DNA from: Myxococcales bacterium
GTDB lineage: Bacteria; Myxococcota_A; Polyangia; Polyangiales; Polyangiaceae
Assembly (NCBI GenBank): GCA_009692485.1
Contig: SHZB01000016.1
Span: 1-35,906, forward strand
Direction of reading: 5' to 3'
DNA: 35,906 nt
Under the pieces are notes generated by a model. That model did not search any database, was not told the DNA's origin, and saw only the letters and a list, made by a program, of their open reading frames with translations. The position numbers and the translations under genes were made by a program. This document shows positions 28,051 to 32,804 of this stretch, in pieces (the first letter of the stretch is position 1; every line of letters begins with the position of its first letter).

Positions 28051-28419
28051 GACGGCCGCTCGACTAACACACCCGCGGGCGGCGAGCCAATCCGGCGTGG
28101 CCGAGGGGACGCAAATGAAAGCTCCGTTCGACCTTTGACAACCGCCATCAACGCGTTGAGATCACATTAGATTTTTGCGCAAATTGCAACAAGCCGAAGC
28201 CTGGCGCGCCAGCTGCTTTGTCGAAAATCGTTGTGCCTCCGCGGCGGACTCGTTACTTGTTGGCCCACCCGCTGACAACGTCGCATCTTATCTCACATCG
28301 GCATACCAATTAGCTTCATTGGCAGACTTGGCTTTTTTTGCAGACCAAGCCGCGCCTCGATAGGCGCTCCACGTGCTTCGCGGATGATTCATCCGAGTAG
28401 CCCGGACCGAGGAGAGAAG

Positions 28420-28599
28420 ATGAGATTTGCACCCTGGTACCTCGCAGCTCTCGCGCCGTTCGCGGCCGTTGGATACGGTGGCGCCCACCTCGGCCATGTC
28501 GTGGTCCTGCTCCTGACGGTCGGCATTTTCCTCGGGACACTGCACGTCGGAAAGCAGCTCCCGGGCGGGCTGCCGGGCCAGCCCAAGACCGACCCGTGA
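28420..28599 (+). CDS. Very small membrane protein (59 aa)
   Basis: SD ggagagaag before ATG 28420; MRFAPWYLAALAPFAAVGYGGAHLGHVVVLLLTVGIFLGTLHVGKQLPGG. Confidence 0.6.
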   Translation: MRFAPWYLAALAPFAAVGYGGAHLGHVVVLLLTVGIFLGTLHVGKQLPGGLPGQPKTDP

Positions 28600-28627: not shown

Positions 28628-29752
28628 GTGTTTGAAACCCTGAATGCGCGCCGGATGCCTCCTCGACCGACAGCCCTGGTATTTCCGTCCCGGCTCACCG
28701 CGCTCAAGCGCCTGAGCGATCTGTCGCTCATGGACCTCGAGAGCGTGCGGCTCATCCTCGAGGGTCAGTCCGTCGTGGACTGGCAGAGGCTGCACCTGGA
28801 GACCGACGACGAGGCGGCGCGCTTCCTCGAGACCAACGCGTTCGACCCGACCGGTGCGGACGACAATCGCCGGCTGGACGCGATCAAGACCAGCGCCATC
28901 GACTACCTCCGCTGGCAGTTCGAGCTTGCGATCCCGCGCGCCGTCGCCGACGCGAGCGTGGTGGGACTGTTGCGAATGGCCTCGACCAAGGGCAATCGGC
29001 AGCTCAGCGCGTGCACGATCCTCAAGGCGATGCACATCATCCACCACGTGGAGGCACGCGAGCTGCAGTACTCGCTCGCCCTCTCCGATCTGGAGTTGTT
29101 CCGGCTCATCGAAGAGCGCGTCTACCGTCTCGTCGGACAGATGCTCGCCGAGGGCCTGCCCATCACGGAGTTCGTCGGCGGACGTAAGCGGCGCGCCTCG
29201 ATTTACACCAAGCTCTTGAGCAAGCGCGAAGCCCACGCGTCCGCGATCTACGACAAGCAGCGATTTCGAATCGTCACCCGCAGCAAAGACGACATTTTTC
29301 CGATCCTTCTCTACCTCACGCACAATTTGTTCGCGTTCAACTACGTCGTGCCCGGCGAGAGCATCAACACCGTCGTTCACTTCCGAAGTTACTGTGATGC
29401 ACACCCGCATTTGGCTCAGCTCGCGCGCCGCAGCATGCCGACGGATGATTTCACGCTCAGCGACAATCGCTTCAGCGCGACGGACTACCGGATCATCCAC
29501 TTCGTGGTCGACGTGCCGGTGCGGGTACCGCCGGCACTGCTCGAGGCCGCGTCCCCCGAGGCGCGCTCGCTAGGCCCGGTGATCTTCGGCATGTGCGAGT
29601 TTCAGATCATCGATCGCGAGACCGAAGAGGCCAACGAAAAAGGCGACGCGAGTCACGCCAGCTACAAGAAACGACAGCGCGATGCGGTGATGCGGCGACT
29701 GCTCCTCGAGGGCGCGCGAAGCTCCCGCGCTCGCCGTCCGACGCGCTCCTGA
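28628..29752 (+). CDS. Uncharacterised protein with apparent divergent RelA/SpoT-like synthetase domain
   Basis: GGRKRRASIYTKLL...YDKQRFRIVT...DYRIIHFVV...CEFQIIDRETEEANEKGDASHASYK in the order and spacing of RSH synthetase motifs. Confidence 0.65.
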   Translation: MFETLNARRMPPRPTALVFPSRLTALKRLSDLSLMDLESVRLILEGQSVVDWQRLHLETDDEAARFLETNAFDPTGADDNRRLDAIKTSAIDYLRWQFELAIPRAVADASVVGLLRMASTKGNRQLSACTILKAMHIIHHVEARELQYSLALSDLELFRLIEERVYRLVGQMLAEGLPITEFVGGRKRRASIYTKLLSKREAHASAIYDKQRFRIVTRSKDDIFPILLYLTHNLFAFNYVVPGESINTVVHFRSYCDAHPHLAQLARRSMPTDDFTLSDNRFSATDYRIIHFVVDVPVRVPPALLEAASPEARSLGPVIFGMCEFQIIDRETEEANEKGDASHASYKKRQRDAVMRRLLLEGARSSRARRPTRS

Positions 29753-29763
29753 TCGCGAGGGGC

Positions 29764-29817
29764 TCAGCGCATCAACACGAAGCTGACTGCGCGAGCGGGT
29801 CAGCGAGCCAGCACGAA
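29764..29817 (-). repeat. In-frame 36-bp-spaced duplication of the terminal codons plus stop (FVLAR* / FVLMR*)
   Basis: Minus strand TTCGTGCTGGCTCGCTGA and TTCGTGTTGATGCGCTGA, 14/18 identical, stops 36 bp apart. Confidence 0.6.
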
Positions 29818-31344
29818 ACCAAGCGCGCCAACGACCGCGGCGATGACGGCACCGCCGATGCTCGCCCCACGCCGGTAAGCCTCGGCATCGTACGAAGTCG
29901 TCGCGCGCCGCAATTTCTCGACCTCGCGCTCCGCCACATCGCGGACGCCGCAGATCTCGGCAAATTGCGCGATCGCGGCTTCGCCAACGGTCGCTGGATG
30001 TTCGACGACGAGCAGGCGCAGCGCCGCTTCGTAAGCGTTGAGTCGTGACTGCTGGGCAAATTCTACGGCCGTCCGTCGTTGCTTCTGCAGCTCGTCAGCG
30101 TCGCGGCTCAAGCTCTGGCGCCGCGCGTCGATCGCGGCCGCCGCGCGGTCATGCTGCGAGAGCTTACGCTCGACCTCCTGCACCGCCCTCCGGCCCTCTG
30201 CGACCACGACGTCGTGACCGCGCAGCGCCTGCTCGAGCCGCGCTTTCTGGCCCTCGAGCTCGACGATGCGACGCGCGAACTCGGGCGGCGCGAACTCGGA
30301 AGCTCCTGCCGCCGCCCCGGCCGCGTCGTGAGCCACCTCGAGGCCACGCTTCGCCTGTAACAACGCCGCGCGGTCGCGCGCCTGGTGGGCACACCCATCC
30401 TCCAACACCACCTGCGCCTTCTTGCGCTGCGCCAAGATCGCGGCGCGCTCCGTTTCCCGCACGACCGCCTCATCGTCGAGTCCCCGCGTGCTCGCGTCGA
30501 AAGAGGCTCGTGCCTCCCCGAGCTCACTCGACCGGAGCGAGACGGCCTGGGAAGAGTCATCGATGGGCTTGAACGCGAGTTCGAAGGGATCGTCCGCCGC
30601 ACAGCCGGCCTTGCTGCGAACCTCATCGGCGAGTGCAGCCATTTTCTCTTGCAGAAAGCGCCGCTGCTTGGCGTAATCATCGACCTCGCCAGCGAGCAAT
30701 TTCTCGAGGGTGCGCCGACGCAACCACGTACGTAGCGCGTACGGAACGGTGGCCGGCAGCGATGTCGGCGGCGGTCCAAAGCCGCCAAGCGCGGCGACCT
30801 CCTGTTCTGCAACGCTCAAGGCACGGGGGACTGTTGCGACCACCGCGGGTGCGCTGGCCGACCCGGATCCTGGGGCCTGGGTCGCGGCCAACGCGTTCTT
30901 CTTCTGGGCGGCGAACGCATCGGGCGCGGGCGGCAACATCGATTGCAGCTCGAGGCCGGTCCCCACCAGATCGGAGTCATCGTCGAGCGCATTCATGGCC
31001 GATTCGGTCGTCGTGGCGCTCGGAAGATCGCGGCGAAGGTCCGCGCCGTCCTCGAGATCGAGCCCGAATTGCACGTTGAGTTTGCCACCGTCGTCGCCAC
31101 CGATGGCCGCCTTGCCTGGTGCGGCCACCAGCGTGCGGACGAGCGGAACCCTACCTACCGCCACGGGCAAGGGCGCCGCCTCTGGGAAATCGAGCCGTAG
31201 GCTGGGAAGCGGCTCTTTCAGTTCTTCCGGCACACGCGAAACAGAACTCGCCATCTCGCATTGGGGACACGAACGCGGCGACGCTCTCCCGATCACGCAC
31301 CCGCACCGCGGGCAAACGCCGTCGTCGATTGACACGCGACCCAT
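29800..31344 (-). CDS. Zinc-ribbon / coiled-coil / C-terminal TM tail-anchored protein
   Basis: Start ATG 31344: MGRVSIDDGVCPRCGCVIGRASPRSCPQCE; long coiled coil; C-terminal ASIGGAVIAAVVGALGFVLAR. Confidence 0.75.
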   Translation of the reverse strand: MGRVSIDDGVCPRCGCVIGRASPRSCPQCEMASSVSRVPEELKEPLPSLRLDFPEAAPLPVAVGRVPLVRTLVAAPGKAAIGGDDGGKLNVQFGLDLEDGADLRRDLPSATTTESAMNALDDDSDLVGTGLELQSMLPPAPDAFAAQKKNALAATQAPGSGSASAPAVVATVPRALSVAEQEVAALGGFGPPPTSLPATVPYALRTWLRRRTLEKLLAGEVDDYAKQRRFLQEKMAALADEVRSKAGCAADDPFELAFKPIDDSSQAVSLRSSELGEARASFDASTRGLDDEAVVRETERAAILAQRKKAQVVLEDGCAHQARDRAALLQAKRGLEVAHDAAGAAAGASEFAPPEFARRIVELEGQKARLEQALRGHDVVVAEGRRAVQEVERKLSQHDRAAAAIDARRQSLSRDADELQKQRRTAVEFAQQSRLNAYEAALRLLVVEHPATVGEAAIAQFAEICGVRDVAEREVEKLRRATTSYDAEAYRRGASIGGAVIAAVVGALGFVLAR

Positions 31345-31420
31345 CTTGCCGCGATTTTGGATTCGCTGGCTCGAAAATTTCTCACGAAATTCGGGACCTG
31401 AACCCGCTCGACCCGAGCGC

Positions 31421-31545
31421 GCTGTGCCCATGCTGTGCCCAGTGCCCAGTGCCCCATGCTGTGCCCAGTGCCCCTGCTGTGCCCATGCTGTGCCCAGTGC
31501 CCCTGCTGTGCCCATGCTGTGCCCAGTGCCCATGCTGTGCCGATG
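31421..31545. repeat. Compound 11/18-bp (29-bp higher-order) tandem repeat in a divergent intergenic region
   Basis: GCTGTGCCCAT and GCTGTGCCCAGTGCCCCT units alternating. Confidence 0.92.
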
Positions 31546-31645
31546 CGCGGCCACCCTTCGACTGCAACACGCGCTTCGCCACGCCGTTGACTCTCCGGGG
31601 GGCGCGCACCACGATGCGGGCCGTCCGTCACCGCCAGCATTTGCC

Positions 31646-32155
31646 ATGCGTCTGCATCCAAACCAAATTCCACCGCTCGCGAAGAAGCTCGTCAAAGCGC
31701 TGATCGCTGCCCGCGACATCGATGCAGAGAGCCCGCGCGAGGTCGAACGCGACGTCGAGGCGGTGCTCGAGAGCTACGTCCGCGAAGTCGATGCCGTCCA
31801 GTCGCGCGCGAGAGAAATCGTCCAACAACGCGGCATGCCCACGGGCGAGTTCGGGCGCGCGGTCAAGCACGCTGCCGAAAAATCCGGCATCAAGGTCGGC
31901 GAAGATGCGCTCGATTTCGTGCTCGATCAGCTGCTCGAGATGCTCATGCACTCGAACAACATCGACGAGGTCTTCGCCGCGGATCACGACCTGCGCAGAC
32001 GCATGCGTCCGCTCATCGTCGCTGCCGCGGATCTCGACAAAGAGGTCGATCTTGAAGTGCGCAGCAAGCTCAAGCACGTCCAGGAAGGCACGCGCACCTG
32101 GGAGATCGAATACGCGCGCATGATGGACGAGATCCGACGCCGCAAAGGGGTCTGA
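31646..32155 (+). CDS. DUF507 family protein
   Basis: MRLHPNQIPPLAKKLVKALI...RRRMRPLIVAA..., two-unit DUF507-like organisation. Confidence 0.8.
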   Translation: MRLHPNQIPPLAKKLVKALIAARDIDAESPREVERDVEAVLESYVREVDAVQSRAREIVQQRGMPTGEFGRAVKHAAEKSGIKVGEDALDFVLDQLLEMLMHSNNIDEVFAADHDLRRRMRPLIVAAADLDKEVDLEVRSKLKHVQEGTRTWEIEYARMMDEIRRRKGV

Positions 32156-32156
32156 G

Positions 32157-32804
32157 TTGGCCGGCGCGGAAGAGTTCCTCACGCTCATCGTCTCGTCCCC
32201 GTCGGGTGCCGGCAAGACCACGCTGTGCGAGCGACTTCGCCGCCGCGTCACGGACTTGCGCTTCAGCGTTTCGCATACGACGCGCACGCCGCGCCCCAGC
32301 GAGGTCGATGGTCGCGAGTACCACTTCGTCGACGACGCGGCCTTCGGCGAGATGGTGAGTGCGGGGCGCTTCGCCGAGTGGGCGGTCGTCCACGGGCGCT
32401 CTTACGGGACGGCTCACTCCGAGGTCGACCATGCGCGCAGGACGGCGAACGGCATTTTGTTCGACATCGATTTCCAGGGCGCGCGCCAGATCAAGGCTCG
32501 TGTCATGGACGCCGTCAGCGTGTTCATTTTGCCGCCGTCGCTCACGGAGCTCGAGCGCCGTCTGCGCGGGCGAGGCACCGAGGATGAGCCGACGACGCGC
32601 CGGCGGCTCGCAAACGCAAAGCGAGAGATCGCCCACTATGGCCTCTTCGACTACGTCGTCGTCAACGATGATCTCGACCGCGCCGAAGAGCGCATCGTCT
32701 CGATCGTGATCGCAGAACGCTGCCGCCGCGCCCGTCACGCCGATCGCTGCGAAGCCCTGCTCGCCCGAGCGCGTGAGGCCACGCTCGGCGAGCCCGACGC
32801 CTGA
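32157..32804 (+). CDS. gmk: Guanylate kinase
   Basis: LIVSSPSGAGKTTLCERL, SVSHTTRTPRPSEVDGREYHFVD, FAEWAVVHGRSYGT; TTG start. Confidence 0.95.
   Translation: MAGAEEFLTLIVSSPSGAGKTTLCERLRRRVTDLRFSVSHTTRTPRPSEVDGREYHFVDDAAFGEMVSAGRFAEWAVVHGRSYGTAHSEVDHARRTANGILFDIDFQGARQIKARVMDAVSVFILPPSLTELERRLRGRGTEDEPTTRRRLANAKREIAHYGLFDYVVVNDDLDRAEERIVSIVIAERCRRARHADRCEALLARAREATLGEPDA

Follow-up and report, generated by a model that had tools for sequence, protein, structure and literature searches.

The stretch of DNA analysed here (the window) comprises 35,906 nucleotides and corresponds to contig C203 in a draft genome of 4.1 Mb. Its open reading frame at 28628-29752 on the + strand starts with GTG at 28628, has a stop codon ending at 29752 and encodes a protein of 374 aa. 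An alternative ATG start is present at codon 10 (28655), and homologues align from approximately residue 26. The features of this gene and its surroundings were as follows:

28628..29752, + strand: gene of the TIGR04552-family RSH-synthetase-like protein, GTG start, 374 aa
28727..29149, + strand: family-specific all-helical N-terminal domain, residues 34-174 in the AlphaFold2 model
28763..28780, + strand: G46-x-S48-x-x-D51 motif of the N-terminal domain, invariant in 32/32 family members
29177..29212, + strand: motif 1, GGRKRRASIYTK, residues 184-195, ATP triphosphate-binding positions mapped to K66/S70/K74 of FaRel2 (PMC11782079)
29252..29269, + strand: motif 2, D209KQRFR214, with the Mg2+-ligand Asp and the adenine-contacting Arg, both 32/32
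29330..29485, + strand: region with the ∼34-residue insertion before the acceptor-loop motif, two predicted helices, invariant N247 and N280
29486..29500, + strand: motif 3 (acceptor loop), Y287RIIH291, Tyr/Phe and His/Asn/Gln variable in the family
29597..29677, + strand: motif 4, E324FQIID329...N336E...H343ASYK347KRQ350, with positions invariant in 32/32 members
29800-31719, opposite strand: predicted ORF between the window gene and the DUF507 gene
31646..32155, + strand: DUF507 gene, downstream neighbour in Polyangia relatives (46/59 loci with room)
32157..32804, + strand: guanylate kinase gene (gmk), downstream neighbour in Polyangia relatives (45/59 loci with room)

The protein scored 317.5 bits against NCBIfam family TIGR04552 (cut-off 125) and 304.4 bits against its sister TIGR04562 (cut-off 140), and nearly the whole model was covered in both cases. 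We take both to be named families without a functional name; the window protein is a member and showed no difference from the family. The initial sequence-only reading had described a divergent RelA/SpoT-like protein outside the canonical RSH architecture. This description stood, except that the protein is not a lone oddity, since it belongs to the uncharacterised TIGR04552. The Pfam model RelA_SpoT (PF04607) matched residues 187-350 with an E-value of 7.9e-6 and 26.6 bits, which is 0.4 bits under the curated cut-off of 27, so that surveys relying on this cut-off would miss the protein; one relative (G008) scored 27.8 bits. We aligned 32 family sequences, drawn from several classes of Myxococcota and 23-70% identical to the window protein, and 29 of them matched RelA_SpoT at E-values up to 1 when scanned individually. 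A census of RSH proteins from 2011 listed delta-proteobacterial SAS subgroups (PMC3153485). The sole paper found in the literature to name TIGR04552 does so only as a listing: a single-base deletion in the TIGR04552 gene of Bdellovibrio sp. NC01 had reached a high frequency in one line out of six after long co-culture with prey (PMC9888234). This suggests that the gene was dispensable in the evolved line, though that line had further mutations.

The proposed membership of the RelA/SpoT superfamily was confirmed by sequence profiles, profile-profile comparison and structure prediction. The ten best matches of the family profile among all PDB sequences were RSH (p)ppGpp synthetases, including YwaC (E 2.5e-4) and Rel_Seq (E 1.7e-3), and hhalign against the canonical Rel of sister genomes aligned residues 146 to 350 of the window protein with an E-value of 1.6e-7. 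An AlphaFold2 model was obtained from 70 sequences (pLDDT 83.9, pTM 0.82), in which residues 179-358 formed strands and helices in synthetase order. When this model was compared with the PDB using Foldseek, as the sequence-only reading had proposed, Rel_Seq, RelQ (SAS1) and RelP (SAS2) were returned first, with E-values of 1.5e-5 to 1e-4 and a probability of ∼1; these are (p)ppGpp-synthetase domains, and the best matches included no other fold. The TM-scores were modest, reaching 0.5 at best when normalised to the target length and ∼0.28 when normalised to the query length, which the insertions and the extra domain presumably explain. A fold search of the window protein against a viral library resulted in weak RelA/SpoT matches alone.

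The model also contained the long helical N-terminal region that had been expected from the sequence, and Pfam and NCBIfam scans detected no HD, TGS or ACT domain, again as expected. We also considered whether the N-terminus could be a degenerate HD hydrolase domain and rejected this, as the N-terminal hhalign profile did not align to the HD region of Rel and the N-terminal domain folded alone (pLDDT 78) had no Foldseek match among solved structures at an E-value below 0.001. With its invariant G-x-S-x-x-D motif, this domain would occupy the place of the hydrolase domain in long RSH proteins.

The RSH synthetase motifs followed each other in the order read previously, and the positions expected to bind ATP and Mg2+ were highly conserved. 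In motif 1, K187 and K195 were present in 32/32 members and S191 in 30/32, and in motif 4 the residues E324, Q326, D329, Y346, K347, R349 and Q350 were invariant (32/32). Across the full range of 23-70% identity, K187, K195, D209, R214, E324 and Q326 remained unchanged in all 32 members. The donor site of FaRel2 in complex with APCPP consists of R64, K66, S70, K74, R77, D90, G93, R95, E145 and Q147 (PMC11782079), and seven of these ten residues map onto conserved family positions. The residues that bind ATP and Mg2+ in RelP are likewise among the conserved positions (PMC11782079). The earlier mapping of motif 1 onto GRxK did not survive the alignment: the motif is one residue short and the Arg is not at the canonical position. 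The position of the adenine-stacking Arg (R64 of FaRel2, R260 of L118, a RelA-like RSH protein of the same genome) was occupied by G, S or P in 28 of the 32 members and never by Arg. One residue further on, 25 members have an Arg (R186), which may or may not substitute for the displaced ATP-stacking residue. The loss of the stacking position, together with the variable acceptor loop described below, would fit a pseudo-enzyme that retained the synthetase fold for binding or regulation and lost the reaction. Metal ligands and phosphate-binding Lys residues that are fixed, with a nearly fixed Ser, down to 23% identity would be unusual in a dead site, and we consider a pseudo-enzyme very unlikely.

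The spacing on either side of the acceptor region was as in canonical Rel, with 22 versus 21 residues from K187 to D209 and 23 in both from E324 to K347. Relative to L118, ∼34 residues were inserted between the Asp and the Tyr, in agreement with the large insertion before YxxIH noted previously, and another ∼21 after the Tyr and before the Glu, a second insertion that the earlier note had lacked. N280 lies ahead of Y287RIIH291. Residues on the acceptor side that are invariant in canonical Rel change in the family. Homologues had been expected to conserve the Asp, the Glu and YxxIH. This was the case for D209 and E324 (both 32/32), whereas the Tyr and His of YxxIH vary: the loop Tyr is Tyr in 21 members and Phe in 11, and the His, previously taken for a kept residue, is His in 10, Asn in 17 and Gln in 5. 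The equivalent Tyr-to-Phe change in FaRel2, Y128F, compromises that enzyme (PMC11782079). The Ala/Gly position of motif 2 is Arg in 26 members and Gly in 6, the Ser position of motif 3 is mostly hydrophobic and the Trp after the conserved His is lost. The Arg following E-x-Q-x is absent and the next Thr replaced by Asp in all 32 members. As the donor positions are fixed and the acceptor positions changed, we infer a working donor site and a remodelled acceptor site. Judged from its sequence, the window protein is a conserved, uncharacterised member of the RSH superfamily whose acceptor site is probably remodelled and whose helical domain is specific to the family. The conservation supports a putative enzymatic function well.

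Signatures of acceptor specificity have been described for motifs 2 to 4, namely AVR, SxH and IR for guanosine and RYT, GxN and YH for adenosine (PMC12226406). The window protein has RFR, IxH and II at the guanosine-signature positions and so lacks that signature, and by these signatures the family appears to fit neither class cleanly. Exchanging the signature residues was reported not to convert specificity (PMC12226406). Motif 2 (D-x-x-G-V-R) and motif 3 (YxSIQ, or YRSLH in member L149) are closer to the canonical ones in members of the TIGR04562 type, which would, on these motifs, bridge the family to classical RSH proteins.

We consider the window protein probably to be an active, vertically inherited, stand-alone RSH pyrophosphokinase with a remodelled acceptor site, probably a soluble purine-nucleotide product, and a regulatory rather than toxic role. 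In its guanine branch, this explanation includes an ordinary small (p)ppGpp synthetase that acts on GDP/GTP like RelQ and RelP, the pocket differences being neutral drift. The nearest structures and sequences are indeed (p)ppGpp synthetases, motifs 2 and 3 are near-canonical in the TIGR04562-type branch, and a guanylate kinase is encoded close to the gene in Polyangia relatives. However, the window protein lacks the guanosine signature AVR/SxH/IR (PMC12226406), the missing Arg after E-x-Q-x and the Thr-to-Asp replacement are family-wide (both 32/32), and gmk linkage was not seen in distant classes. An ordinary synthetase is thus a serious possibility that falls short of being probable. As a rough guess, a guanine nucleotide is the foremost candidate acceptor and an adenine nucleotide the second, the remainder being shared by RNA ends and others.

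Within Polyangia-type loci, the DUF507 and gmk genes were on the same strand as the family gene, and in 28 loci DUF507 started 34-261 bases past it. This linkage was not seen in more distant classes, and among 23 distant loci no neighbour family was present in more than four. Directly upstream of the window gene there is a small hydrophobic ORF of 71 aa (28384-28599, + strand). This membrane ORF was rejected as a partner, as a same-strand homologue was present in just 29 of 73 near loci and at variable distance.

One copy of the gene was present in each of 54 of the 59 relatives. Matches were found in 170 of 286 Myxococcota genomes and in 136 of the 210 good-quality ones, with second copies in a few; 14 control genomes contained no family match. 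The family is also annotated in Bdellovibrio, and among the best 80 of 366 confirmed contig loci, all titles were Myxococcota or deltaproteobacteria apart from one that read just 'Proteobacteria'. Pairwise distances of the family correlated with those of Rel (r 0.74; 8 genomes, 28 non-independent pairs), with identities of 0.54-0.66 compared to 0.57-0.75 in Rel. The gene is chromosomal, nearly always single-copy and vertically inherited, and its divergence parallels that of the housekeeping Rel. Searches for homologues on plasmids and in the viral database IMG/VR retrieved none. A homologue in 'Microcystis phage MaAM05' (MW495066.1, loci L149 and L150) was set aside because the record resembles a piece of bacterial chromosome. 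It carries rpsA, rplU, rpmA, rplK, rplA, secE-nusG, trpS, glyS, coaD, fabI, secDF and scpAB, and its TIGR04562-family gene product is 25% identical to the window protein, with YRSLH as motif 3. One genome (G256) contains two members, L138 and L139, one nearer TIGR04552 and the other nearer TIGR04562, suggesting that a gene of the family was duplicated long ago.

The sequence-only reading had raised the possibility of a toxSAS-like tRNA pyrophosphorylase. These patterns bear on it and, more widely, on a toxSAS-like protein that would inhibit growth or act in defence by pyrophosphorylating RNA 3' ends (tRNA CCA) or producing toxic (p)ppApp. Like toxSAS enzymes (FaRel2, CapRel, PhRel) and (p)ppApp synthetases of the Apk/Tas1 type, the window protein has extra helices outside its synthetase core, in this case ahead of it. 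The motif 2 Arg (RFR) and the motif 3 Asn of 17/32 members, at positions where adenosine 3'-pyrophosphokinases have RYT and GxN, recall the signature of those enzymes (PMC12226406). In contrast to those enzymes, neither an antitoxin or immunity partner nor a secretion or phage context was seen for the family, and its members are inherited vertically and near-universal in relatives instead of patchy or horizontally spread. A toxin-antitoxin or defence gene was looked for by way of a conserved partner across classes, a PADLOC match for the window protein, and plasmid and viral carriage, and none of these was found. Because of the vertical inheritance, the near-universality in relatives and the lack of a conserved partner and of plasmid or viral carriage, a toxSAS role is disfavoured, and we regard it as unlikely; an adenine or RNA acceptor may nevertheless be used by a protein that is not a toxin.

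Compared with RelQ/SAS1 and RelP/SAS2, the protein shares the synthetase domain, the motif order and the ATP/Mg positions, and likewise has no hydrolase domain. At 374 aa it is larger than these enzymes (∼180-210 aa in solved chains), and it differs from them in its helical N-terminal domain, two insertions, displaced first Arg and altered acceptor-side residues. With the long RSH proteins (Rel/RelA/SpoT) it shares the synthetase domain and the preceding helix, which aligns from residue 146 in hhalign, while it has no HD, TGS, AH/RIS or ACT domain. In the preferred explanation of a stand-alone pyrophosphokinase, K187, S191, K195, R214 and E324/Q326 would bind ATP as the donor, D209 would carry a divalent metal, and the pyrophosphate of ATP would be transferred onto an acceptor's 3'-OH. 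Reshaping of the acceptor pocket would involve the Tyr loop, the His/Asn/Gln position, the two insertions and the pair of a hydrophobic residue and Asp that follows E-x-Q. The enzyme would work alongside the full-length RSH proteins, most likely releasing a soluble pyrophosphorylated purine nucleotide. The analysis demonstrates homology, conservation, distribution, synteny and co-divergence with Rel, and from these we infer catalytic activity, a small-nucleotide acceptor and a regulatory role. More tentatively, and with some doubt, the remodelled site may yield a pyrophosphorylated product other than (p)ppGpp under control of the helical domain, in parallel to the classical stringent response.

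Myxobacteria and Bdellovibrio have starvation-driven developmental or predatory lives, and studies of their stringent signalling usually consider only Rel/SpoT. If another conserved RSH-type synthetase is encoded in most such genomes, work on alarmones and on Rel deletions in these bacteria would be incomplete. Most sampled Myxococcota genomes may contain an overlooked additional alarm-signal enzyme under a family name that carries no function. The family would also provide a natural comparison, as an RSH pocket that was altered on the acceptor side with the donor side fixed.

Two full-length RSH proteins are encoded elsewhere in the same genome. L144 (contig C158) is a Rel whose HD motif looks intact, and L118 (contig C34) is RelA-like with a degraded HD motif (ARHALRD versus LLHDVVED in Rel). 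Genome G002 has the same RelA-like type as L118, and other genomes of the same genus also have two matches. Further, stronger RelA_SpoT matches were present in G005, G012, G041 and G042, in ORFs of 357-555 aa, which are probably other small alarmone synthetases distinct from the family. In most of the sampled canonical Rel proteins of Myxococcota, the acceptor loop itself reads NMYQSLH or similar, compared to the usual NGYxSLH.
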